Part shown: one piece after another, positions 1 to 50,581 of the stretch
Layout: each line of letters starts with the position of its first letter
How positions within the stretch are numbered: the stretch's first letter is position 1
DNA from: Flavobacteriaceae bacterium
GTDB lineage: Bacteria > Bacteroidota > Bacteroidia > Flavobacteriales > Flavobacteriaceae
NCBI GenBank assembly: GCA_029238215.1
Contig: JAQWGN010000018.1
Location: forward strand, 1-54,826
Length of the DNA stretch: 54,826 nucleotides
Direction: 5' to 3'
Notes under the pieces: generated by a model
What the model saw: the letters and a program-made list of their open reading frames with translations, nothing else
What the model was told of the DNA's origin: nothing
Databases searched by the model: none
Position numbers and translations under genes: made by a program

Positions 1-343
1 TAGGAGTCTGGTCCGTGTCTCAGTACCAGTGTGGGGGATCCCCCTCTCAGGGCCCCTATCTATCGTAGCCTAGGTGAGCCGTTACCTCACCTACTAGCTA
101 ATAGAACGCATGCTCATCTTTTACCGCCGGAGCTTTAATCAAGTATCTATGCAGATATATGATATTATGGAGGATTATTCTTCATTTCTAAAGGCTATTC
201 TCCAGTAAAAGGTAGATTGCATACGCGTTACGCACCCGTGCGCCACTCGTCATCTGGTGCAAGCACCAATGTTACCGTTCGACTTGCATGTGTTAAGCCT
301 GCCGCTAGCGTTCATCCTGAGCCAGGATCAAACTCTTCATTGT
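1..343 (-). rRNA. rrs: 16S ribosomal RNA, 5' part (cut by window edge)
   Basis: Read on the minus strand, 336-317 is the universal 16S 5' primer site AGAGTTTGATCCTGGCTCAG. It is followed by the usual GATGAACGCTAGCGGCAGG and ACATGCAAGTCGAACGG blocks and, near the window edge, by the conserved ACTGGTACTGAGACACGG region. The mature 5' end is placed near 343 by analogy with E. coli, where seven bases precede AGAGTTTG. Only about the first 340 nt of a ~1.5 kb gene are present, and the gene continues off the left edge. The sequence style is that of Flavobacteriaceae. Transcription comes from the tandem promoters at 502-623. Confidence 0.97.
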
Positions 344-2383: not shown

Positions 2384-4256
2384 TCTCTTCAACCACTTCA
2401 GGGTTCAGTAAGGTAGAAACATCACCAAGACTACCGTGTTCACCTGCGGCGAGTTTACGAAGTATTCTTCGCATGATTTTTCCGCTTCTTGTTTTGGGTA
2501 AACCGCTAACTACTTGTATACGATCAGGTTTGGCAATGGGACCGATTGTTTGAGCAACCAAAGAACGTAGCTCATCAGTCATTTTTGTTTCATCGATAAT
2601 TTTACTGTTTACAATCACATAAGCGTGAAGGGCATTTCCTTTTACATCGTGCGGAAAACCTACTACAGCACTCTCTACTACTAACTCGTGCTCGTTTAAA
2701 GCATTTTCAATAGGAGCCGTGCCCAAATTATGACCAGAAACAATTACAACATCATCTACTCTTCCGGTAATACGGTAATTTCCTTTGGCATCACGAAGCG
2801 CCCCATCACCAGGAAAATAATACCCTGGATACGCACTAAAATATACATTTTTATAACGCTTGTGATCGCCCCAAATTGTACGTGCTATTGAGGGCCACGG
2901 ATGGCTAATCGCCAAAATACCTTCTGCTTCACCTGCTAACTCATTGCCTTCAGCATCTAATAAAACTACCTGAATTCCAGGCATGGGCAACGTAGCGTAG
3001 GTGGGTTTTTGAGGAGTAATCCCTGCTAAGGAAGTAATTAAAATACCACCAGTTTCTGTTTGCCACCATGTGTCTACAATAGGACATTCATGCTTTCCAA
3101 CATATTTGTCATACCAATGCCATGCTTCCTCGTTAATAGGTTCGCCAACAGAGCCTAAAACTCTTAAAGATGATAAATCATGTTTGGTCACCAATTCGGT
3201 AGGATGTTTTTGTAAAGCCCTAATAGCTGTTGGGGCTGTGTAAAACTGATTGACTTTATGTTTAGCACAAACCTCCCAAAAACGGCCATAATCTGGATAA
3301 GAAGGAACTCCCTCAAACATAAGGGTCGTTGCGCCAACGATTAAAGGACCGTAAACAATGTATGAATGTCCAGTAATCCAGCCAATATCTGCTGTACACC
3401 AATACACATCTCCCTTTTGATATTGAAAAACGTTTTGAAATGAATAGGCAGTATAGACCATATAGCCTCCACAAGTATGTACCATCCCTTTAGGTTTTCC
3501 GGTAGAACCAGAAGTATATAAAATAAAGAGTGGATCTTCACTATCCATAACCTCGGCAGGACAAACGTCAGAAGCCTTTTCAACTTCTTCATGCCACCAC
3601 AAATCCTTTTTATTCCAAGACACGTGTTGACCAGTGCGTTTAAGAACTATGGTGTTGTTTATAGATGGGCAATTCAATAAAGCATCATCTGCGATTTCTT
3701 TCAAAGGAGTGACTTTACTCCCCCTAAAACCTCCATCAGCAGTAAGCAGCAAAGAACAATGTGCATCATTTATTCTGGCAGCAAGAGCAGAAGCGGAAAA
3801 ACCAGCAAAAACTACAGAATGAATTGCACCAATACGAGCACACGCAAGTACTGCAATTGTTAACTCTGGAACCATAGGCATATATATGCATATCCTATCT
3901 CCCTTCTTTGCGCCATTAGCTTTCAGCATATTTGCCGCACGACAAACACGTTGATGCAACGTTCTATAAGAAATATGCTGAGCAGCTTCGCTAGGGTCGT
4001 TTGGCTCGAAAATAAGTGAAGTTTTGTCGGGATGTGTAGTTAGGTGACGGTCTAGACAGTTTTCAGTAATATTCAGTTGTCCGCCCAAAAACCATTTTAC
4101 AGAGGGTTGATTGAAATCGTATTCAAGCGTAGTATCCCATTTTTTATGCCAATGAAATCCTTCTGCAATTTTAGACCAAAAACTTTCAGGATTCTCCAGC
4201 GCTTGTTTTACTGCATTACTGTGGTCTTCAATTGACCGGTATGTCAAATCTTTCAT
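2367..4256 (-). CDS. acs: Acetyl-CoA synthetase
   Basis: This enzyme converts acetate, ATP and CoA to acetyl-CoA, AMP and PPi through an acetyl-adenylate. The 629-aa length is close to the family norm (~640-650). An N-terminal ACS domain is followed by the ATP-binding P-loop-like YTSGSTGKPKG, the acetate pocket region DTWWQTETGG, the hinge ITGRVDDVV and the C-terminal KTRSGKIMRR. The last contains the lysine that is acetylated for regulation in characterised Acs. The gene is monocistronic or follows the M3 peptidase gene with a 93-bp gap. It is convergent with, and overlaps by 17 bp, the M42 gene. Identification is firm. Confidence 0.97.
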   Translation of the reverse strand: MKDLTYRSIEDHSNAVKQALENPESFWSKIAEGFHWHKKWDTTLEYDFNQPSVKWFLGGQLNITENCLDRHLTTHPDKTSLIFEPNDPSEAAQHISYRTLHQRVCRAANMLKANGAKKGDRICIYMPMVPELTIAVLACARIGAIHSVVFAGFSASALAARINDAHCSLLLTADGGFRGSKVTPLKEIADDALLNCPSINNTIVLKRTGQHVSWNKKDLWWHEEVEKASDVCPAEVMDSEDPLFILYTSGSTGKPKGMVHTCGGYMVYTAYSFQNVFQYQKGDVYWCTADIGWITGHSYIVYGPLIVGATTLMFEGVPSYPDYGRFWEVCAKHKVNQFYTAPTAIRALQKHPTELVTKHDLSSLRVLGSVGEPINEEAWHWYDKYVGKHECPIVDTWWQTETGGILITSLAGITPQKPTYATLPMPGIQVVLLDAEGNELAGEAEGILAISHPWPSIARTIWGDHKRYKNVYFSAYPGYYFPGDGALRDAKGNYRITGRVDDVVIVSGHNLGTAPIENALNEHELVVESAVVGFPHDVKGNALHAYVIVNSKIIDETKMTDELRSLVAQTIGPIAKPDRIQVVSGLPKTRSGKIMRRILRKLAAGEHGSLGDVSTLLNPEVVEEIKKNS

Positions 4257-28782: not shown

Positions 28783-30186
28783 CTAGCGGTCTAAGGAATT
28801 TGGGATAGGACCTACAAGACCGTATGTGTCATACAAATAGATTAATGAAGTCATGGTTGCTGCACCGAGTTCAAGCTCGCGTTTGTTTACAGCATCAAAG
28901 GTGTCATTTTCAGCATGATGATGATCAAAATAACGCTGAGAGTCTGGACGCAGTCCTGCCAAAACGTTATAGTTGTTTTTGAGTGGCCTGATATCAGCAC
29001 CACTTCCACCCTGTTCAAAATAATGAATTAAATAGGGTTTGAATAGCGGTTTCCACGATTGCACCTGAGCAAATTCTGAGTCGGAACATGAAAATGAAAA
29101 ACCTCTAGGAGTAAAACCTCCTGCATCAGATTCAAGAGCAAATATGTGCTGCTCATTAGACGATAAGGCACTCTGAGCGTATGCATTTCCTCCACGCAAA
29201 CCATTTTCTTCATTCATGAATAATACAACTCTAATGGTGCGTTTTGGCTGATATCCAGTAATCTTAAACAAGCGAAGTACTTCCATGGATTGTACTACAC
29301 CAGCTCCATCATCATGAGCGCCATCTCCCAAATCCCAGGAGTCTAAATGACCTCCCACAACTATAACTTCGTTAGGAAATACACTGCCCTGTATTTCTCC
29401 TATAACATTATTTGACCATACATCTGGATAAGTTTTACACTGTTGGCGAAATAAAAATTTTAGCTTAGGCTCTAGTCTTAACAGATAACTCAATTTTTCA
29501 GCAGCATTGGTGCTAATTGCTGCGGCAGGGATTCGTTGAGACACTTGTTGGTCGCCATAACTCATAGCTCCCGTATGTGGCAAATCATCCAATCGTAAAT
29601 TCATTGAGCGAACAATAACTCCAACAGCACCGTATTCACTTGCCTCACGCGCGCCGTCATAACGTTGATCTACACACCCTGAATACGCTTGAAAGGTGCT
29701 AATTAAGTCTGCTTGCATTGGGCGGTTGTAAAAAACAATTTTACCCTCAATATTCTCTTTGCCCAGAGCTTTTAATTCTTCAATTCCATGCACTTCGATC
29801 ACAGGTGCCTTTAAACCAACAGAAGGTGTCGCTACAGATCCACCAAGAGCAGTAATAGGAACATTAAAAGTCACACCAGGAGCTGTTTCAATTAATGCAA
29901 ACTCTTTAGGACCTCTAACCCACTTTGGAACCTTAACAGCTTGTAAATAAACGCGATCTAACCCCATAGAGTCAAGTGCTTCCTTTGTCCAAGCTACAGC
30001 ACGTTCTGCTCCTAAAGAACCCGAGAGGCGACTCCCGATGCGATTGGATAAATAATCAAGCCATTCGTAAGAATTACCTTCCAATAAGGATGTTTTGAAA
30101 AATTTTTCAATTTGCTTTTCATCATTTTCATTAGGCTGTGAAAAAAGGAATGTACTGAAAAACAGGGCAATTAATATACGTATCAT
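28783..30186 (-). CDS. M28 family metallopeptidase (carboxypeptidase Q-like), exported
   Basis: A secreted di-zinc exopeptidase of 467 aa with a cleavable signal peptide (residues 1-16, ending FLFSQ). A PA-like insert is followed by the catalytic domain: VVGGHLDSWDLGDGAHDDGAG (zinc His and bridging Asp), MNEENGLRGG (catalytic Glu), ALESDAGG and a final HHHAENDTFD (zinc His). The order fits PGCP/carboxypeptidase Q-like M28B enzymes. Its start overlaps the response regulator stop by 4 bp (ATGA). Likely role: periplasmic peptide degradation. Confidence 0.92.
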   Translation of the reverse strand: MIRILIALFFSTFLFSQPNENDEKQIEKFFKTSLLEGNSYEWLDYLSNRIGSRLSGSLGAERAVAWTKEALDSMGLDRVYLQAVKVPKWVRGPKEFALIETAPGVTFNVPITALGGSVATPSVGLKAPVIEVHGIEELKALGKENIEGKIVFYNRPMQADLISTFQAYSGCVDQRYDGAREASEYGAVGVIVRSMNLRLDDLPHTGAMSYGDQQVSQRIPAAAISTNAAEKLSYLLRLEPKLKFLFRQQCKTYPDVWSNNVIGEIQGSVFPNEVIVVGGHLDSWDLGDGAHDDGAGVVQSMEVLRLFKITGYQPKRTIRVVLFMNEENGLRGGNAYAQSALSSNEQHIFALESDAGGFTPRGFSFSCSDSEFAQVQSWKPLFKPYLIHYFEQGGSGADIRPLKNNYNVLAGLRPDSQRYFDHHHAENDTFDAVNKRELELGAATMTSLIYLYDTYGLVGPIPNSLDR

Positions 30187-31334
30187 ACAGTATTGGAGAT
30201 ATATGTTAAAACATCATGTTTTGTGATTTCATCTCCACCCAAAATAGATAAACGCTCAACAGCATTACGCAATTGACGAATGTTTCCCGACCATTGCATC
30301 GCTTGCAAAGACTCTATTGCATCTTTACTGATCTCCTTTTTTGGGCTTAATGTCTTTAAAAAATGTGTGACTAACGCTGGAATATCTTCACTGCGTTCAT
30401 TTAAAGAGGGCACATTAATTTCAATTACGGCAAGGCGATGGAATAAGTCTTCACGAAAATGGTGTTGAGAAATCGCATTTTTAACATTTTTATTTGTTGC
30501 CGCAATTACTCGAACATCGACAGGGATTGATTTATCGCTACCCACACGCTGAATTTTGTGTTCCTCTAGCGCGCGCAAAACTTTGGCTTGTGCAGCAAGG
30601 CTCATATCTCCAATTTCATCTAAAAACAGTGTTCCTCCATGCGCTTGTTCAAAAGTTCCTTTTCTGTCCTTATGGGCCGATGTAAAAGACCCCTTAACAT
30701 GACCAAACAATTCACTTTCAATAAGTTCAGCAGGAATTGCGGCACAATTGACTTCAACAAAAGGGGCCTCAGATCTAGTACTGTTATAATGCAATGCTCG
30801 CGCTACGAGTTCTTTACCACTTCCGTTGGGACCTTGAATAAACACACGAGCCATTGTAGGAGCAACTTTATCGATCATTGAGTAAATAAGCTGTATCGGG
30901 GGAGAATTACCAATCATGGTATATTTCTTAGGAAGCGCTTTTACTTTGAGAGAAGGTGTAGGCTTATTTACTACTTGTAATGCCGATCGAACTGTTTGGA
31001 GTAAATGATTTAAATCGGGTGGCTTAGAAATATAGTCGTATGCTCCCAAGCGCATTGCCTGAACTGCAGTTTCTAGATCTCCATGTCCTGAAATCATTAC
31101 AACAGGGGTATGAATGTTTTTTTCTTTTATATACTTAAGAACATCCAGACCGTCCTTTTTTGGCATTTTAATGTCACATAAAACTAAATCAAAAGAAGTG
31201 CTATTCAATTGGTTAATTGCATCTACGCCATCAACAGCTTCAGTAATGATGAGCTTCAAATCTTGTTCTTGAAGCACCTTTTTCATTACACGACGAATAT
31301 TTGCTTCATCCTCGACTAATAGTAAATTTGCCAT
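30183..31334 (-). CDS. Sigma-54-activator-type response regulator without HTH
   Basis: A 383-aa two-domain regulator. The receiver (1-120) has the acidic pair VEDE, phospho-acceptor Asp54 in LCDIKMPKKDG and a conserved Lys in YISKPP. The AAA+ domain (~145-375) has Walker A GPNGSGKE, Walker B LFLDEIGDM and an arginine finger region. The loop that contacts sigma-54, normally GAFTGA, reads GSFTSA. The protein ends right after the AAA+ domain (ISNTV), so the Fis-type DNA-binding domain is absent. It is sandwiched between MscS and M28 genes with 0-4 bp junctions; no histidine kinase is adjacent. Confidence 0.93.
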   Translation of the reverse strand: MANLLLVEDEANIRRVMKKVLQEQDLKLIITEAVDGVDAINQLNSTSFDLVLCDIKMPKKDGLDVLKYIKEKNIHTPVVMISGHGDLETAVQAMRLGAYDYISKPPDLNHLLQTVRSALQVVNKPTPSLKVKALPKKYTMIGNSPPIQLIYSMIDKVAPTMARVFIQGPNGSGKELVARALHYNSTRSEAPFVEVNCAAIPAELIESELFGHVKGSFTSAHKDRKGTFEQAHGGTLFLDEIGDMSLAAQAKVLRALEEHKIQRVGSDKSIPVDVRVIAATNKNVKNAISQHHFREDLFHRLAVIEINVPSLNERSEDIPALVTHFLKTLSPKKEISKDAIESLQAMQWSGNIRQLRNAVERLSILGGDEITKHDVLTYISNTV

Positions 31335-37049: not shown

Positions 37050-37071
37050 ATACCCCCATTTTTTAGGGGGT
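37050..37071 (+). promoter_or_regulatory. 22-bp ATACCC...GGG element, distal copy (porin-amt operon)
   Basis: The element begins ATACCCCC, has an AT core and ends AGGGGGT, a near-palindrome. The same 22-bp pattern (read on the other strand) occurs twice between the glutamine synthetase genes at 49461 and 49514. Position is 69 bp upstream of the predicted porin -7 box. It could instead be the crcB terminator, but the sequence after the stem is not T-rich. Interpreted as a regulator binding site (inference). Confidence 0.55.
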
Positions 37072-37102: not shown

Positions 37103-37124
37103 ATACCCCATTTTTTTTACACTT
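37103..37124 (+). promoter_or_regulatory. 22-bp ATACCC element, proximal copy (left half only)
   Basis: ATACCCCA followed by a T run; the right GGG half is degenerate. Its start is exactly 53 bp from the distal copy, the same spacing as between the two copies in the glutamine synthetase region. It covers the place where the -33 TTG would be for the -7 box at 37140. The pattern fits a site for an activator or repressor touching polymerase. Confidence 0.5.
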
Positions 37125-37139
37125 ATATAAAAATTAGGA

Positions 37140-37147
37140 TATGTTTG
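37140..37147 (+). promoter_or_regulatory. -7 box of the porin-amt operon
   Basis: TATGTTTG matches TAnnTTTG. There is no TTG at the -33 position, where instead the proximal ATACCC element lies. The leader to the porin ATG is about 55 nt. Confidence 0.55.
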
Positions 37148-38240: not shown

Positions 38241-39518
38241 ATGTCTTTATTAACAACACTTCCTAATTTCATAAGCACGACAGCAGCTGTTGATGCAAAT
38301 GAAGACTTTACAATCCTTTGGATTCTTTTATCAGGTATTCTTGTTTTCTTTATGCAAGCAGGTTTTACCCTAGTAGAATCAGGAATGACTCGCGCTAAAA
38401 ACGCAGCAAACATCGCCATGAAAAACTTCATGGATATTAGTGTAGGAACAATCAGCTTTTGGGCTCTTGGTTACGGACTAATGTACGGAGGAAAAGATGC
38501 TTCTGGTTTCTTTTCTGTAAGCGATTTATGGTTTAACCCTGGTGCTGGTGCACACGATGTATTCTTCCAAACAGTATTTGCTGCTACAGCGGCAACCATT
38601 GTTTCTGGAGCAGTTGCAGGTAGAACTAAATACAGCACTTACATCATATTCACACTTTTCCTTACAGCGATTATCTACCCTATTTCTGGTGGATGGCAAT
38701 GGTACGGAGATGGTGCATGGTTAGCTGATTTAGGCTTTATTGACTTTGCTGGTTCTTCAATTGTTCACTCTGTTGGTGGATGGGCTGCATTAGTAGCTGC
38801 TTGGATGGTAGGTCCAAGAATTGGAAAATATGTTAACGGTAAAGCGGTGGCAATTCCAGGAAGTAATTTATTACTTGGAACATTGGGTGTATTTATCCTT
38901 TGGTTAGGATGGTTCGGTTTTAACGGAGGTTCACAACTTGCCTGGGGTGGAGATGATTCTATCGCTGCTTCAGCTGTTGTAATGGTAACGAATATTGCTG
39001 CTGCTGCAGGAGCACTGGGAGCCTTATTTACTTCTTGGTTATACCTTGGAAAACCTAGCTTATCGCAAACACTTAACGGTGCAATTGCTGGACTTGTAGC
39101 TATTACTGCTGGTTGTGGAAACATGACAATGGCAGGAGGTTTCTTTGCTGGTCTTATTGGTGGTGTCATTGTAGTTTTCTCTATCGAATTTATTGAGAAA
39201 AAACTAAAAATTGATGATGCTATTGGAGCAGCCTCTGCACATGGTGTTGCTGGAGCATGGGGAACACTAGTAATTGGACTTTGGGGCGTAGATGGCGCAA
39301 CAGGGATTGGTCTATTAAACGGCGGTGGCGCTTCTCAGCTTGGTATCCAAGCTATTGGAGTTGCTGCATACGGAGCATGGGCAATCTTAACGTCTATCAT
39401 TGTATTAGGTGTGTTGAAGAAAACTATTGGCCTTCGTGTTTCTGAAGAAGACGAAAAGGCTGGTTTAGACATGGCTGAGCACGGTGAAAATGCTTTTAGC
39501 AGTGAATTATTACCTTAA
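38241..39518 (+). CDS. amt: Ammonium transporter, first copy
   Basis: A 425-aa, eleven-helix Amt/MEP/Rh protein. Conserved features: FFMQAGFTLVESGMTR (first helix), the periplasmic Asp in FIDFAGSSIVHSVGGWAAL with pore His in VHSVGG, and the second pore His in ASAHGVAGAWG; both pore histidines are therefore present. The cytosolic C-terminal tail (LRVSEEDEKAGLDMAEHGE) is the part that interacts with PII in AmtB. A hairpin terminator or attenuator lies between it and the PII gene. Confidence 0.97.
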   Translation: MSLLTTLPNFISTTAAVDANEDFTILWILLSGILVFFMQAGFTLVESGMTRAKNAANIAMKNFMDISVGTISFWALGYGLMYGGKDASGFFSVSDLWFNPGAGAHDVFFQTVFAATAATIVSGAVAGRTKYSTYIIFTLFLTAIIYPISGGWQWYGDGAWLADLGFIDFAGSSIVHSVGGWAALVAAWMVGPRIGKYVNGKAVAIPGSNLLLGTLGVFILWLGWFGFNGGSQLAWGGDDSIAASAVVMVTNIAAAAGALGALFTSWLYLGKPSLSQTLNGAIAGLVAITAGCGNMTMAGGFFAGLIGGVIVVFSIEFIEKKLKIDDAIGAASAHGVAGAWGTLVIGLWGVDGATGIGLLNGGGASQLGIQAIGVAAYGAWAILTSIIVLGVLKKTIGLRVSEEDEKAGLDMAEHGENAFSSELLP

Positions 39519-39980: not shown

Positions 39981-41219
39981 ATGGATAGTGCATTATTTAC
40001 AGCAAACAACGTATGGATGATGATCTGTACGGCATTAGTCTTCTTCATGCATATGGGATTTTCCCTTCTTGAAGCAGGACTAACACGACAAAAAAACACC
40101 GTAAACATTTTATTTAAAAACTTCTTTGTGATTACCGCAGGCCTCCTGCTGTATGCATTGGCTGGATTTAATTTAATGTATCCCGGTTTTGAAGAAGGAG
40201 CAACTGGCTTTTTTAAATTCGCAGGATGGGGCATAGCTCCACCAGAAAATGGCATGACTATCGCTTATGCCGATGGAGGTTATACATGGTGGACTGACTT
40301 TTTATTCCAAGGAATGTTTGCAGCAACAGCAGCAACAATTATTTCTGGAGCCGTGGCAGAACGTATTAAACTTGAAGCATTTATGCTCTTAGCTGTTCTA
40401 TACGTTGGACTCGTATACCCAATCGTTGGATCATGGCAATGGGGTGGTGGATTTCTAAGCAATTGGGGATTCTATGACTTTGCAGGATCAACCCTTGTAC
40501 ACTCTGTGGGTGGATGGGCAGCTTTAGTAATCATTTACTTTTTAGGCGCTCGGATTGGCAAATACAATGCTGATGGTAGTTCTAACCCTATTTTTGGACA
40601 CAACATGCCTTTAGCAGCCGGTGGTGTACTTATTCTTTGGTTAGGATGGTTTGGTTTTAATGGAGGTTCAGTACTTTCAGCAGATCCTCAAGCAACATCA
40701 TTAGTACTTGTTACTACAAGTCTAGCAGCAGCAGCTGGTGGATTAGTCGCCTCTGTTTTTTCGCATATTTTATACAAAAACTACGATTTAACCATGTTTA
40801 TGAATGGGGTACTTGGTGGTTTAGTTGCCATCACTGCTGGAGCCGATCAAATGTCTACAGGAGATGCCATGCTTATCGGTGGTATAGGTGGAATCGTAGT
40901 AGTACTGGCTATTGCACTTCTTGAAAAATTAAAACTAGATGATCCAGTAGGTGCTATTGCAGTACATTTATTCTCAGGAATGTGGGGTACACTTGCAGTA
41001 GGATTATTCGGAGCGCTTCGTGGTTTTGACCAATTTATGGTACAACTTGCAGGAGTAGGCATTGTTGGTGCGTTCTGTGTAGCTAGTACACTTATCCTTG
41101 TGTTTGCTGTTAAAGCCCTTGTGGGTCTTCGCGTGAGCAAAGAAGAGGAAGTTGGTGGACTAGATGATGCCGAACATGGCATGTCAGCTTACGCTGATTT
41201 TAGTGTATCCAAAGAATAA
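39981..41219 (+). CDS. amt: Ammonium transporter, second copy
   Basis: A 412-aa Amt family protein, clearly related to but divergent from the copy at 38241. Features: FFMHMGFSLLEAGLTR, pore His in FYDFAGSTLVHSVGGWAAL and second pore His in AIAVHLFSGMWG, plus a C-terminal PII-docking tail (LRVSKEEEVGGLDDAEHG). The gene starts 9 bp after the PII stop. Two transporters flanking one PII may differ in affinity or conditions of use; that is inference. It is followed by a strong terminator. Confidence 0.97.
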   Translation: MDSALFTANNVWMMICTALVFFMHMGFSLLEAGLTRQKNTVNILFKNFFVITAGLLLYALAGFNLMYPGFEEGATGFFKFAGWGIAPPENGMTIAYADGGYTWWTDFLFQGMFAATAATIISGAVAERIKLEAFMLLAVLYVGLVYPIVGSWQWGGGFLSNWGFYDFAGSTLVHSVGGWAALVIIYFLGARIGKYNADGSSNPIFGHNMPLAAGGVLILWLGWFGFNGGSVLSADPQATSLVLVTTSLAAAAGGLVASVFSHILYKNYDLTMFMNGVLGGLVAITAGADQMSTGDAMLIGGIGGIVVVLAIALLEKLKLDDPVGAIAVHLFSGMWGTLAVGLFGALRGFDQFMVQLAGVGIVGAFCVASTLILVFAVKALVGLRVSKEEEVGGLDDAEHGMSAYADFSVSKE

Positions 41220-45376: not shown

Positions 45377-45979
45377 TTAGAATTTAAATACCAAAACAGC
45401 CAAGGCGTAACTACCAAATGCAGTATATGCTGCTCCTTTGTGAACTTCTTTGTTTTTGTCTTTATAAATATTTGTAACCACCATTGCTGAAAAGTGAATT
45501 GTAGCCAAAGTTTTGTGTGCCTTTATCGAAGTAAATCCCTTAACCTTTTTGTTAATTAAAGGCGGTGGTGTAAACAACGAAAGACCTGCTGTAGTAAAGT
45601 ATCCGACGTTAACTACAGTAGCCATGTCTTTATGCAGTTCATATAAATCATTTTGACCTGTATATAGTTTCCCCCCAATAATACCTTGAGCTATCATAGC
45701 AGCTAAGGTTGTATATCCAAGAACTTGATGTGCTGTAAGCATGGTGCGGCGCAACTTCAGTTCTTTTTGCCGTTGTTCCAATGTTAAGGGAGCGATACCG
45801 GAAGTTCTTAAAATTCCTTTTTCACCCCAAAGCAATCGTTGGGTAACAAGCATCCGATCAGGTAATAAACTAGGTGCTTCAGTAGGCTCTTCAAGCATGC
45901 TAAAAAGGTCTGAACCGTCCTGTGAGAAACTCATCAAACTTGAAAGAAACAATATGCCAATTAGAAAATACCTATTCAT
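45377..45979 (-). CDS. Membrane protein, cytochrome b561-like by His pattern
   Basis: A 200-aa protein with a signal-like N-terminus (ending SFSQ), a soluble linker (21-75) and four hydrophobic segments (~81-103, 119-137, 153-172, 183-199). Conserved-looking histidines lie at 84, 116, 155, 162 and 180, near helix ends, as expected for two bis-His haems of a b561-type electron-transfer protein. E. coli yceI also neighbours a b561 gene (yceJ). I see no domain I can name with certainty; the b561 idea is inference. Its start overlaps the purM stop by 8 bp. Confidence 0.7.
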   Translation of the reverse strand: MNRYFLIGILFLSSLMSFSQDGSDLFSMLEEPTEAPSLLPDRMLVTQRLLWGEKGILRTSGIAPLTLEQRQKELKLRRTMLTAHQVLGYTTLAAMIAQGIIGGKLYTGQNDLYELHKDMATVVNVGYFTTAGLSLFTPPPLINKKVKGFTSIKAHKTLATIHFSAMVVTNIYKDKNKEVHKGAAYTAFGSYALAVLVFKF

Positions 45980-47156
45980 ATTCAAAAGTGCCATTTGGTG
46001 TTTCTAAGGTAAGTTTCTTGGTACTGCTAGCTTCCACACGACCAACAATTTTCGCCTCAATATTAAATGACTTAGCCATTGCAATAATTTTATCGGCATG
46101 TTTTGAATCTACATACAATTCCAATCGATGTCCCATATTAAAGACTTTATACATCTCACGCCATTCGGTTCCTGATTCTTTTTGTATCATTTCGAACAGT
46201 GGCGGAATGGAAAATAAATTATCTTTTATAACGTGAACATCATCAACAAAATGCAACACTTTAGTTTGAGCACCACCACTACAATGGACAGCTCCATGTA
46301 TAGCAGGACTACCCAGTTCTTCTATGACAGCCTTCATTACTGGGGCATAGGTCCTTGTTGGCGACAATACCAATTTTCCTGCGTTTAAAGAAACCCCATC
46401 TACGGAATCTTCTAATCTTTTTGTTCCAGTATACACAAGGTCATCTGGCACGAGTGGATCAAAACTTTCTGGAAAAGTAGTAGCCAGAGATTTATGAAAA
46501 ACATCATGCCTTGCAGAAGTGAGTCCATTACTTCCCATGCCGCCATTATAAGCACTTTCATATGATGCTTGCCCAGAAGATGACAATCCTACAATAACAT
46601 CGCCTGGTTGTATATTCGCATTGTCTATCACCTTATTTCTAGCCAATCTTGCAGTCACTGTAGAGTCTACAATTATAGTCCTAACTATATCACCAACATC
46701 TGCAGTTTCACCTCCAGTAAGTGTAAGCTTCATGCCATGAGTATTAAGCTCATCTACAAGTTCTTGGGTGCCCTCGATAAGTGCTTTAATAACTTCTCCG
46801 GGAATCAGGTTTTTATTACGTCCAATGGTAGAAGAAATTAGGATTTCATCGACTGCACCTACACAGAGCAAATCATCAAGATTCATAATTAAGGCGTCTT
46901 GTGCTATTCCCTTCCAAACAGATAAATCGCCAGTTTGTTTCCAATACATGTATGCCAAGGATGATTTTGTACCTGCACCATCAGCATGCATAATCAAGCA
47001 ATATGCATCATCATTTGTGAGATAATCAGGAACAATTTTACAGAACGCTTTCGGAAAGAGTCCCTTATCAATGTGTTTGATGGCTGCGTGTACATCTTCT
47101 TTATCGGCAGACACCCCACGCATTTGGTATCGTTCGTTTGAAGGCTTTTTTGCCAT
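45972..47156 (-). CDS. purM: Phosphoribosylformylglycinamidine cyclo-ligase, PurM-like
   Basis: AIR synthetase closes the imidazole ring in purine synthesis, using ATP. The 394-aa Bacteroidota form is recognisable by the glycine-rich ATP loop MHADGAGTKSSLAY, DDLLCVGA, LTGGETADVGD and GLSSSGQASYES. It is longer and more divergent than E. coli PurM (345 aa), but the motif order is preserved. It lies 1 bp after GSIII, linking glutamine synthesis with purine synthesis in one transcript. Confidence 0.9.
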   Translation of the reverse strand: MAKKPSNERYQMRGVSADKEDVHAAIKHIDKGLFPKAFCKIVPDYLTNDDAYCLIMHADGAGTKSSLAYMYWKQTGDLSVWKGIAQDALIMNLDDLLCVGAVDEILISSTIGRNKNLIPGEVIKALIEGTQELVDELNTHGMKLTLTGGETADVGDIVRTIIVDSTVTARLARNKVIDNANIQPGDVIVGLSSSGQASYESAYNGGMGSNGLTSARHDVFHKSLATTFPESFDPLVPDDLVYTGTKRLEDSVDGVSLNAGKLVLSPTRTYAPVMKAVIEELGSPAIHGAVHCSGGAQTKVLHFVDDVHVIKDNLFSIPPLFEMIQKESGTEWREMYKVFNMGHRLELYVDSKHADKIIAMAKSFNIEAKIVGRVEASSTKKLTLETPNGTFEYE

Positions 47157-47157
47157 A

Positions 47158-49344
47158 TTAACGTAAAAATAATAGTTCTCTAAACTTTGCTAAGGGCCAA
47201 GAAGAATCATCAATAATGAGCTCCAAGCCGTCAGCAGCTTTTCGTATGGTATCAAAAATGGGTAGCACGTTAGATGCATACATCTGTGCTTTATCATCGA
47301 GCTTACTCATACTGTTTGCCTTTGTTCGTGCATCACGCAAGTCATCACATGAAGAATTAAGTGCATCTAACAAAGCACTAATTTTTTCAATGCTCCCTAA
47401 GGCAACGTGTGCATGTTTACTAAAGTTCTTTTCATAAATATGCTTTAATCCTTCAACATTTTGAATTAACATATGCTGATATTTGAATGATGCTGGTAGA
47501 ATCTGATCATTAACCAAGTTTTCAAGAATTAGGCTCTCAATCTCAATACGTTGCACATATTGTTCCATCTGAATTTCATACCGTGCCTTTTGTTCTACCG
47601 GGTTCATAACTCCCATTGAATCAAAGAGGTTAATAACTGTCTCGTCTAATCGAATACGTAGTGCTTCTGGTGTGGTTTTTAGATTTGACAATCCACGACG
47701 AGCGGCTTCTTTTTGCCAAGAATCGCTGTAACCATCTCCGTCAAATAAAATATTTTTTGTGTTTTTAATATATTCTCTCAATACATTAAAAATGGCATCA
47801 TCCTTCTTTAATTTCTTGGATTTGATAAGTGCATCTACTTCCTTTTTAAAATCTATCAATTGCTTAGCAACAATTGTATTAAGAACCGTCATAGGAATGG
47901 CGCAGTTCTGATTTGAGCCAACAGCACGAAACTCAAATTTATTCCCAGTAAAAGCAAAAGGTGAAGTACGATTACGGTCTGTATTGTCAAGCAAAATCTC
48001 TGGGATTTTACCCACTACATTCAGTTTTAAATCTGTTTTCTCTTGAGGAGATAATTTTCCCTTAGAAACATTTTCTAAGTCGCTTAAAACTGCTGAAAGT
48101 TGTGAGCCGATAAAGACCGATATAATAGCAGGAGGTGCTTCATTTCCTCCCAATCGATGGTCATTACCTGCACTCGCTATAGAAGAACGAATGAGAGACT
48201 CATAATTTTGAACTGCCTTTATCGTTGTAATAAAGAATGTTAAAAACTGTAAATTACTCATGGGAGTTTTTCCAGGACTTAACAGGTTTACTCCAGTGTT
48301 GGTTAACAACGACCAATTGTTGTGTTTGCCTGAACCATTAATACCTGAAAAAGGTTTTTCATGTAGCAAGACCTTAAACTGATGCTTACTAGCTATTTTG
48401 CCCATAATATCCATTAATAGGGCGTTATGATCAACGGCAAGATTGGCTTCTTCAAATATGGGAGCTAACTCAAACTGATTTGGAGCGACCTCGTTATGCC
48501 TTGTTTTTACAGGGATACCTAACAACATTGAATTGTACTCCAATTCACGCATAAAGTTAATCGCTCGGTTGGGAATAGATCCGAAGTAATGGTCATCTAG
48601 CTGTTGTCCTTTTGGGGGGGGATGTCCAACCAAGGCTCTTCCAGCCAACATAATATCGGGTCTTGTGGAGGCCAAGGCTTTATCGACAAGGAAATATTCT
48701 TGCTCCCACCCTAGTGTCGCTTGTACACGGGTAACATTTTTATCAAAATACTTTGCTACTTGTGTGGCAGCAACATCAACAGCACTTAAAGCTCGAAGCA
48801 AAGGGGTTTTGTTATCAAGAGCCTCACCTGTGTAAGAAACAAAAATAGTAGGAATACAGAGTGTTGTGTCATAAATAAAAGCAGGAGATGAAGGATCCCA
48901 GGCGGTGTATCCTCTTGCCTCAAAAGTGTTGCGAATACCTCCATTCGGGAAACTTGAGGCGTCTGGTTCTTGTTGAACCAGCTGAGAACCGTCAAAATGT
49001 TCTAAGCCTTCGCCGTTAGCATCAATATCAAAAAAGGCATCGTGTTTTTCGGCAGTTGCTCCAGTAAGGGGCTGAAACCAGTGTGTGTAATGTGTAGCAC
49101 CCATTGACATAGCCCAATCTTTCATAGAGGCGGCTACGTGATCAGAAACCGCTCGGGTAATTTTAGTTCCCTTTTCAATCGCTTCATCAACCTCAAGGAA
49201 GGCTTGCTTTGTTAAGAACGTCCGCATTGCTTTTTTAGTGAATACATGGCTTTCAAAAAGAGTTGATTTTTTTTCCTCTACATGAAACGAATTTGTGGGA
49301 CGGTTTACCGCGTCCCGAAGGGCTTGAAAACGCAGTTTATTCAT
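47158..49344 (-). CDS. glnN: Glutamine synthetase type III
   Basis: This enzyme makes glutamine from glutamate, ammonium and ATP. At about 728 aa it is the large GSIII form typical of Bacteroidota and some cyanobacteria, with a double-ring dodecamer. Motifs: GWEQEYFLVD (metal-binding Glu), HNEVAPNQFE, NGSGKHNNWS and NRTSPFAFTGNKFEFR. The ATG at 49344 (MNKLRFQAL) is preferred to an in-frame one at 49371, which would lie over the -7 box. It leads the seven-gene operon and is divergent from the type II enzyme. Confidence 0.96.
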   Translation of the reverse strand: MNKLRFQALRDAVNRPTNSFHVEEKKSTLFESHVFTKKAMRTFLTKQAFLEVDEAIEKGTKITRAVSDHVAASMKDWAMSMGATHYTHWFQPLTGATAEKHDAFFDIDANGEGLEHFDGSQLVQQEPDASSFPNGGIRNTFEARGYTAWDPSSPAFIYDTTLCIPTIFVSYTGEALDNKTPLLRALSAVDVAATQVAKYFDKNVTRVQATLGWEQEYFLVDKALASTRPDIMLAGRALVGHPPPKGQQLDDHYFGSIPNRAINFMRELEYNSMLLGIPVKTRHNEVAPNQFELAPIFEEANLAVDHNALLMDIMGKIASKHQFKVLLHEKPFSGINGSGKHNNWSLLTNTGVNLLSPGKTPMSNLQFLTFFITTIKAVQNYESLIRSSIASAGNDHRLGGNEAPPAIISVFIGSQLSAVLSDLENVSKGKLSPQEKTDLKLNVVGKIPEILLDNTDRNRTSPFAFTGNKFEFRAVGSNQNCAIPMTVLNTIVAKQLIDFKKEVDALIKSKKLKKDDAIFNVLREYIKNTKNILFDGDGYSDSWQKEAARRGLSNLKTTPEALRIRLDETVINLFDSMGVMNPVEQKARYEIQMEQYVQRIEIESLILENLVNDQILPASFKYQHMLIQNVEGLKHIYEKNFSKHAHVALGSIEKISALLDALNSSCDDLRDARTKANSMSKLDDKAQMYASNVLPIFDTIRKAADGLELIIDDSSWPLAKFRELLFLR

Positions 49345-49368
49345 GATGAATTGTTTTTGGATGAGTAA

Positions 49369-49376
49369 CAAATATA
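49369..49376 (-). promoter_or_regulatory. -7 box of GSIII operon
   Basis: TATATTTG on the minus strand matches the consensus and lies 24 nt upstream of the GSIII ATG. No TTG at the -33 position, which is consistent with activator dependence. Confidence 0.55.
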
Positions 49377-49460
49377 CATCAAAATATATGTTTTTCTAAG
49401 GATGTAATGTTTTTAGATTTTGACATGAATCTGGCTTGATTTTAAACAATTATCAAAAAA

Positions 49461-49482
49461 CACCCCTTTAAATTAGGGGTAT
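49461..49482 (-). promoter_or_regulatory. 22-bp ATACCC...GGG element, distal copy (glutamine synthetase region)
   Basis: Read on the minus strand: ATACCCC, AT-rich core, GGGGTG. It lies between the divergent GSIII and GSII genes, 85 bp from the GSIII -7 box and 64 bp from the GSII -7 box, so it could act on both. Its sequence is shared with the site at 37050. Confidence 0.6.
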
Positions 49483-49513
49483 AGCAAAAATTACAGTATT
49501 CTTTATAAAAAAA

Positions 49514-49535
49514 CACCCATAAACCACTAGGGTAT
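49514..49535 (-). promoter_or_regulatory. 22-bp ATACCC...GGG element, proximal copy (glutamine synthetase region)
   Basis: Read on the minus strand: ATACCC, core, TGGGTG. Starts 53 bp after the distal copy. It covers the -33 zone of the GSII promoter, 11 nt before its -7 box. Confidence 0.6.
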
Positions 49536-49546
49536 GTATAAAATTT

Positions 49547-49554
49547 TATTTTTG
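49547..49554 (+). promoter_or_regulatory. -7 box of the GSII gene
   Basis: TATTTTTG (TAnnTTTG), 19 nt before the ATG. The -33 TTG is missing and replaced by the proximal ATACCC element, as in the porin-amt promoter. Confidence 0.6.
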
Positions 49555-49573
49555 TAATTCATAATACATAATC

Positions 49574-50581
49574 ATGAATAAATCGAAACTCGAATATATT
49601 TGGTTGGACGGTTATAAGCCAACTGCAAATTTAAGAAGCAAAACTAAAGTTGTTAGTGACTTTTCAGGGAAACTTGAAGACGTTGAAATGTGGTCTTTTG
49701 ATGGGAGTTCTACCAAACAAGCAGAAGGCGGATCTTCAGACTGTTTATTAAAGCCAGTGGCTGTATATCCAGATCCTGAACGTAGAAATGGATATTTGGT
49801 AATGACCGAAGTTCTTAACGCTGATGGATCGGCGCATGTATCAAATGGTCGTGCCTCAATTGATGACGATGATGATGACTTCTGGTTTGGATTTGAACAA
49901 GAATATTTCCTATGGGATCCTGAAACAAATCTACCTCTTGGATTTCCAAAAGATCAAACTCCTCAAGGTCAGTACTACTGTTCAGTTGGTGCAAAAAACT
50001 CTTTTGGACGTGAAATTATGGACCGTCACCTAGACGTTTGTTTAGATGCTGGACTTAATGTTGAAGGAACAAATGGTGAAGTTGCTCCAGGGCAATGGGA
50101 ATTTCAAATTTTCGCAAAAGGAGCTGCCGAAGCTGGAGATCAAATTTGGATTGCTCGTTATCTTTTAGAGCGTATCGCTGAAGATTACGGTCTAGCTATT
50201 GATTACCACCCAAAACCACTTGGAGCAACTGACTGGAATGGATCGGGAATGCATGCTAATTTCTCAAATACTACACTAAGAACTTGTGGTTCTAAAGAGA
50301 CGTATGAGAAAATATGTGAAGCTTTCCGTCCTGTTGTAAAAGAACACATCGAGGTTTACGGTGCTTACAATGATCAACGACTTACTGGAGACCATGAAAC
50401 ACAATCTATTGATGCGTTTAGTTTTGGTGTATCAGATCGTGGAGCATCTATCCGTATTCCAATTATGACTGTTGAAAAAGGTTGGAAAGGATGGTTAGAA
50501 GACCGTCGTCCAGCTTCAAACGGAGATCCGTACAAAATTGCAGCACGAATCATTAAAACGGTTAAAACTGCTGACGTATAA
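49574..50581 (+). CDS. glnA: Glutamine synthetase type II (beta-Grasp domain form)
   Basis: A 335-aa glutamine synthetase of the short, eukaryote-like GSII type. Motifs: EMWSFDGSSTKQAEG, GFEQEYFLWD (metal-binding Glu), GTNGEVAPGQWEFQ, DWNGSGMHANFS (catalytic loop) and DRGASIRIP. An acidic run (DDDDDD at about residues 97-102) precedes the first motif. It lacks the Tyr adenylylation site of GSI. Having GSII and GSIII divergent from one control region makes this the centre of ammonia assimilation here. It has its own terminator. Confidence 0.95.
   Translation: MNKSKLEYIWLDGYKPTANLRSKTKVVSDFSGKLEDVEMWSFDGSSTKQAEGGSSDCLLKPVAVYPDPERRNGYLVMTEVLNADGSAHVSNGRASIDDDDDDFWFGFEQEYFLWDPETNLPLGFPKDQTPQGQYYCSVGAKNSFGREIMDRHLDVCLDAGLNVEGTNGEVAPGQWEFQIFAKGAAEAGDQIWIARYLLERIAEDYGLAIDYHPKPLGATDWNGSGMHANFSNTTLRTCGSKETYEKICEAFRPVVKEHIEVYGAYNDQRLTGDHETQSIDAFSFGVSDRGASIRIPIMTVEKGWKGWLEDRRPASNGDPYKIAARIIKTVKTADV

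Follow-up and report, generated by a model that had tools for sequence, protein, structure and literature searches.

Among the described nitrogen regulators, NtcA (Crp family, cyanobacteria) uses a dyad next to the glutamine synthetase core promoter that is similar in span to the elements treated here, and GlnR and TnrA (MerR family, Bacillus) control glutamine synthetase and transport genes through the operator TGTNAN7TNACA, with its A/T-rich centre and short half-sites. Flavobacteria are major degraders of marine algal matter and often live under low nitrogen. A search of the open-access literature, with most subscription papers and all preprints outside it, found no nitrogen operator and no named regulator of ammonium assimilation for the Flavobacteriales. 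In one published survey, sigma-54 enrichment on nitrogen genes is reported to be confined to certain classes (PMC12316311), and a report on Sulfolobus acidocaldarius describes the Lrp-type protein Sa-Lrp, which has glutamine as cofactor and binds ammonia-assimilation promoters at A/T-rich sites (PMC3584215). The window analysed here is the 54,826-nucleotide contig JAQWGN010000018.1 (assembly GCA_029238215.1; contig C9 in our numbering) of a 1.67-Mb flavobacterial genome that is 88% complete. It carries two pairs of CCC/GGG inverted repeats, one before the type II glutamine synthetase gene glnII and one before an operon for a porin, ammonium transporters (Amt) and the PII protein. The pairs recur at these genes in many Flavobacteriaceae and probably form a twin operator for a symmetric dimeric activator of ammonium assimilation.

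Paired elements and their promoters

The preliminary description of this DNA, made from the letters alone, had placed four copies of one 22-bp element at 37050, 37103, 49461 and 49514. All four were located in the sequence, and the start-to-start spacing of 53 bp in both pairs was measured and found correct. Before the porin-amt-PII-amt operon, the putative distal operator (37050..37071, ATACCCCCATTTTTTAGGGGGT) is a full palindrome, ACCCCC-N8-GGGGGT, which lies at the same place in congeners. The putative proximal operator (37103..37124, ATACCCCATTTTTTTTACACTT) lies over the -33 zone and has the left half-site only, as had been described. The -7 box of this operon (37140..37147, + strand, TATGTTTG) starts 34 bp downstream of the first C in the proximal CCC. 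The second pair lies between the divergent genes for glnII and a large glutamine synthetase. Here the putative distal operator (49460..49482) is again a full palindrome, ACACCCC...GGGGTAT, the putative proximal operator (49513..49535) reads ACACCC-N11-GGGTAT over the -33 zone, and the -7 box (49547..49554, + strand, TATTTTTG) starts 31 bp downstream, again counted from the first C of the proximal CCC. In both promoters the perfect TAnnTTTG after the proximal copy and the -33 zone without TTG were read as reported. Both glnII-side copies read ATACCC...GGG on the minus strand, which makes little difference as they are near-palindromes. The repeat is better described as CCC-N10..12-GGG with an A/T-rich centre, the length of 22 bp being a choice of edges.

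A strict pair was defined as CCC-N9..12-GGG followed by ACCC, with a CCC-to-CCC distance of 50-53 bp. On the + strand of the window it matched at 5 overlapping start positions, which correspond to 2 places, and 200 dinucleotide shuffles of the window gave a mean of 0.1 start positions with a maximum of 3. Across the window's genome the single pattern AYACCC-N11-GGG gave 29 rows (23 distinct places) versus 10 for the reversed control. Of the 23 places, 5 were clearly intergenic and 1 was borderline (C10:28434); the rest lay within open reading frames. The intergenic ones comprised 3 in the window contig, 1 between gltB and a transporter gene and 1 without a clear target (C2:170894).

Scanning of 112 upstream regions, a set partly chosen from motif-bearing places (amt, glnK and ald) so that only the glnII count given below is free of that choice, produced 49 pairs. 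After curation 46 were kept; three were omitted, namely L032 as a near duplicate, L120 as a repeat of L186, and L177 (gltB). Under a curation rule of two CCC about 46-62 bp apart, the CCC-to-CCC distance was 53 bp in 20 pairs, 52 bp in 14, 51 bp in 9, 54 bp in 2 and 50 bp in 1, so that 43/46 pairs fell at 51-53 bp, which corresponds to five helical turns give or take one or two bases. The distal site was the better conserved of the two, with the consensus ACCCC-n-AAAAAAATA-GGGGT over 37 aligned sequences, and the proximal site had both halves in 13/46 pairs and was usually a half-site. The central A-run of the dyad points either way in different promoters, which fits a symmetric binder. In 32/46 pairs a perfect TAnnTTTG started 31-38 bp (mode 34) downstream of the first C in the proximal CCC, where about 1.1 were expected from mononucleotide shuffles. 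TTG was found 17-21 bp before the box in 3/32 of these element promoters versus 16/87 control boxes from the same loci.

Conservation upstream of glnII and amt

The glnII set consisted of 80 loci of the closest glnII relatives and the window, giving 81 upstream regions. The strict pair was present in 26/81 of them compared with 2/1048 upstream regions of other open reading frames from the same loci, and shuffled glnII upstream regions held a mean of 0.1 pairs per 81. The array in many glnII upstream regions consisted of a full palindrome, another CCC some 52 bp on and a following TAnnTTTG. Named records with the pair included Allomuricauda, Flagellimonas, Winogradskyella, Jejuia, Cellulophaga, Sediminicola, Sinomicrobium and Croceivirga, among others. 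An ammonium transporter match was found in 41/60 relatives searched, and the array preceded several porin-amt or glnK-amt operons, not only in the window's genus but also in other genera and in a single genome from a different family. Ten A/T-rich, not yet known places of the raw pair pattern were opened; nine lay before nitrogen genes, including ald in three genomes, and the tenth (L179) was downstream of gltD. A search for the single palindrome in 70 genomes of the family showed by eye a modest excess over the control among the matches listed.

Overall, the observation was confirmed and exceeds chance, and the first interpretation of the elements as a nitrogen regulon is supported. Conservation before orthologous nitrogen genes with pairing at about 53 bp was found in the genus and in many other Flavobacteriaceae, and it extends to one genome from a second family of the order; neither a lack of conservation nor many copies at random intergenic places was seen. 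The preliminary description had given Bacteroidota as the range. Among the 80 glnII loci, the pair was not seen before glnII in those of Spirosoma, Dyadobacter, Mucilaginibacter and Balneola or in several streamlined marine flavobacterial loci, and Flavobacteriales is for this reason the safer range.

Genes associated with the pair

A model of the pair, built from sequence only on 37 of the 46 curated pairs, was run on 34 genomes and gave 40 distinct places of at least 25 bits (counted by hand from the printed list), of which 20 were training places and 20 were new. Of the new places, 18 lay before glnII/glnN, porin-amt|gltB, glnK-amt or gltB, counting one (G038) that is a further match about 100 bp away from a training pair and three assigned partly by distance to placed genes (G034 before amt; G112 and G111 before glnII). 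The remaining 2 were terminator-like hairpins between convergent genes. Opened matches of 21-25 bits comprised four at nitrogen genes (L336 ald, L337 gltB, L348 glnK and L349 amt) and three outside them, of which L345 and L347 were terminator-like and L346, in the window's own genome, was of no clear class. When 20 weaker places (15.7-22.0 bits) were opened, 1 was at nitrogen genes (L410) and 19 were outside them, in coding sequence, in terminator-like repeats or of no clear class; none of these 20 was clearly the promoter of a regulator gene carrying an element of its own. At good scores the set of genes was small and confined to ammonium assimilation.

In the window's genus, element matches were found in 17/17 genomes. 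All 29 genus loci that were read (26 places) belonged to the glnN|glnII, porin-amt and gltB|CitMHS-type transporter control regions, including three loci that end near the element, where only the neighbouring gene is visible. The gltB|CitMHS region with the element is also present in the window's own genome.

Divergent control regions showed on which side the promoter lies in register with the pair. The -7 box was in register on the glnII side in 9/13 regions and on the glnN side in 0/13, and likewise on the amt side in 5/9 regions and on the gltB side in 0/9. This ties the pair to glnII and amt. For glnN and gltB these counts gave no support to direct control; if the two genes are controlled at all, this would follow a different mode or use promoters that were not recognised.

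Proposed mechanism and alternatives

The pairs were interpreted as a twin operator for a symmetric dimeric activator of ammonium assimilation, which we consider probable, with a weak preference for a protein of the AsnC/Lrp type. One dimer would occupy the strong distal palindrome with its A/T-rich centre, and a second dimer would bind, probably cooperatively, to the weaker proximal site, which lies on the same helix face at a distance of five turns. The proximal site would cover the position of the -33 TTG of the sigma factor. Since most of these promoters have no such TTG, it is probably the bound protein that brings RNA polymerase to the TAnnTTTG box. With nitrogen status as the presumed signal, glnII and the porin-amt-PII operon would be switched on when nitrogen is short.

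Several results weigh against activation from a twin operator. The strict pair was absent from 55/81 glnII upstream regions, mostly of other families and streamlined lineages, and the raw pair pattern was barely enriched genome-wide (97 rows versus 76 for the control in 14 genomes). A perfect -7 box was not found in 14/46 pairs, and the nine gltB|CitMHS regions of the genus had no box in register on either side. Part of the spacing regularity was built in by the curation rule. The missing TTG is a weak argument, as the difference from the control boxes is in the right direction but small. Finally, the position of the proximal site on the core promoter would fit a repressor as well.

Repression through the same twin operator is the main rival to activation, although we regard it as unlikely. 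With ample nitrogen, a loaded regulator would occupy and bridge the two sites and block RNA polymerase at the -33/-7 region, and nitrogen shortage would release it. The overlap of the proximal site with the core promoter in register and the distance of five turns, which would suit a bridge or loop, speak for this alternative, but conservation is better at the distal site, and promoters with TTG in 3/32 cases should be weak when unaided, even if the controls have few TTG as well. The sign of regulation cannot be taken for granted, because in Prevotella ruminicola a gene set of glutamine synthetase, GOGAT, Amt and PII is reported to rise with plentiful ammonium (PMC5552732). That the elements are transcription terminators or another RNA structure is hardly credible. 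GC-rich inverted repeats can end transcripts and some low-scoring model matches were terminator-like (L319, L342, L345); however, the genes on either side of the glnII pair are divergent, the -7 box follows both sites, the two repeats keep fixed spacing and register, and Rfam matches in the window were rRNA and tRNA only.

Crp/Fnr, NtrC-type, AsnC/Lrp and short MerR proteins were compared as the binder. A Crp/Fnr protein of the NtcA kind on tandem sites was first favoured for its geometry, since the dyad CCCTA-N6-TAGGG and the tandem spacing of about 52 bp resemble CRP arrangements (sites of CRP, NtcA and TnrA were compared by their consensus sequences). It is now very improbable and for this genus largely refuted. 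Crp proteins passed the cut-off in 6/17 congeners versus the element in 17/17, and the incompleteness of the congener genomes (64-89% complete) cannot explain 11 absences; a Crp-type domain was found in 8/17 at E 0.001. The single Crp of the window's genome had no full-length relative in 16 congeners and one weak partial match, and other Crp genes, in relatives, lie beside sulfur-transport genes. A short MerR protein of 106-136 amino acids, similar in size to GlnR/TnrA, stays a candidate for the binder besides the AsnC/Lrp proteins, though an improbable one. It occurred in 12/12 element-bearing genomes and in 5/9 others, but its gene adjoins an envelope peptidase gene and alaS or der, which are not nitrogen-related, its best curated match was HspR and the TnrA model gave 34 bits against a cut-off of 140.

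Other candidate regulators

An NtrC-like protein of the window (30183-31334, minus strand), encoded about 6 kb from the amt operon, has receiver, AAA+ and lid domains; no helix-turn-helix or other DNA-binding domain was found in it, and GSFTSA replaces GAFTGA. A second NtrC-type activator, seen in one congener (L391), has a DNA-binding domain, so that the lack of such a domain rules out only the nearby NtrC-like protein. This second activator keeps GAFTGA and should therefore need sigma-54. The sigma-54 route was rejected, as the signature TGG-N9/10-TTGC was present in 4/112 upstream regions and a looser pattern in 14/112, both counted without a shuffle control. Likely counterparts of the NtrC-like protein were seen about 6-8 kb from the ammonium operon in G111 and G118, and not in G030.

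AsnC group B proteins were present in 12/12 element-bearing genomes and 19/21 overall; they also occur in genomes without the element and are hence not specific. AsnC group A, a fork that is weakly supported, was found in 11/12 element-bearing genomes and 16/21 overall, and its gene is near ald in three genomes. Group A was rejected as sole binder, as none was found in Flavobacterium G116, a genome that carries the elements in weaker form. Clustering of glnII neighbours for a conserved regulator gave only a BlaI-type gene, and an AsnC-type gene in other lineages. An AsnC/Lrp-type protein may be regarded as the leading, weakly supported candidate because of the Sa-Lrp precedent. The preliminary description had suggested a dimeric regulator from the near-palindromic form; the symmetry was borne out and would suit a dimer, and the regulator tests exclude or weaken candidates and do not identify the binder.

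Genes and elements at the neighbouring loci

The operon downstream of the first pair is on the + strand and encodes an outer-membrane porin of the BBP2 family (PF07642; 37207..38220) as its first gene, the ammonium transporter Amt (38241..39518), the PII nitrogen regulatory protein (PF00543; 39612..39971) and a second Amt (39981..41219). The type II glutamine synthetase glnII (49574..50581, + strand) matched NF041605 with 372 bits, below the cut-off of 500. The large glutamine synthetase (47158..49371, minus strand; 737 amino acids) gave weak matches to glutamine synthetase models, below their cut-offs, and was taken as GSIII (glnN) by its length and similarity. A PurM-like protein is encoded directly after it (45972-47156, minus strand; 106 of 236 bits, below the curated cut-off), and a family related to this protein was present in 41/75 clustered glnII loci. 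The contig starts within a 16S rRNA gene (1-343, minus strand), a common assembly break point.

In the window's genus, gltB and a CitMHS-type transporter gene (L188, 7173-8501; also L418, L419, L432 and others) have one control region with its element pair in common. An additional weak element (L410, 3476-3528) was found before glnK within the porin-amt-glnK operon of a Winogradskyella genome. A single perfect dyad, ACCC-N11-GGGT, lies just before an aquaporin-like gene (L396, about 3080-3100), with a weak score that could be due to chance, and another weak element place (L399) is at an unannotated gene. The genes leuS, ald, a zinc peptidase gene and the AsnC group A gene were close together in three genera (L171, L176, L336); in the window's genome ald is gone from this neighbourhood and the AsnC gene remains (L297). 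A Crp/Fnr subfamily adjoins sulfur-transport-like (TauE/YeeE-like) and metallo-hydrolase genes in several genera (L219, L220, L225, L226, L234 and others), the names of these neighbours having been assigned by us from sequence.

Comparison with known nitrogen regulons

A conserved operator anchored to a promoter yields a probable target list for each genome, and it reduces the question of the regulator to one pulldown experiment. The pairs could also serve to examine how an activator acts where the promoter has a TAnnTTTG -7 box but no -33 element. It is possible, and proposed here with reserve, that the Flavobacteriales have a nitrogen control of their own, distinct from NtrC, NtcA, GlnR/TnrA and AmtR, in which a protein whose family is not known to govern nitrogen control in bacteria, for example a glutamine-sensing AsnC/Lrp protein, would act on the twin palindrome and compensate for the missing -33 contact of the unusual RNA polymerase of the Bacteroidota.

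The NtrC/sigma-54 regulon is similar in that dyads precede the genes for glutamine synthetase and amt-PII. It differs in that a TAnnTTTG box is in register in 32/46 pairs here, with a sigma-54 signature in 4/112 upstream regions, and in that the NtrC-like protein of the window is without a DNA-binding domain. Compared with the NtcA regulon, the half-site is another one and Crp-type proteins are missing in 11/17 congeners by the curated cut-off. The GlnR/TnrA regulon also differs in its half-site, which is CCC/GGG here (consensus ACCCC...GGGGT) and not TGT/ACA, and the short MerR protein was not called as TnrA. Sa-Lrp has a parallel in the presence of AsnC group B in 12/12 element-bearing genomes; unlike the proteins considered here it is archaeal, no CCC/GGG motif was seen for it in the accessible part of its report, and group B is also found where glnII is without the element. 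Nitrogen regulons as such are of a known kind, while the present combination of operator and promoter arrangement looks undescribed.
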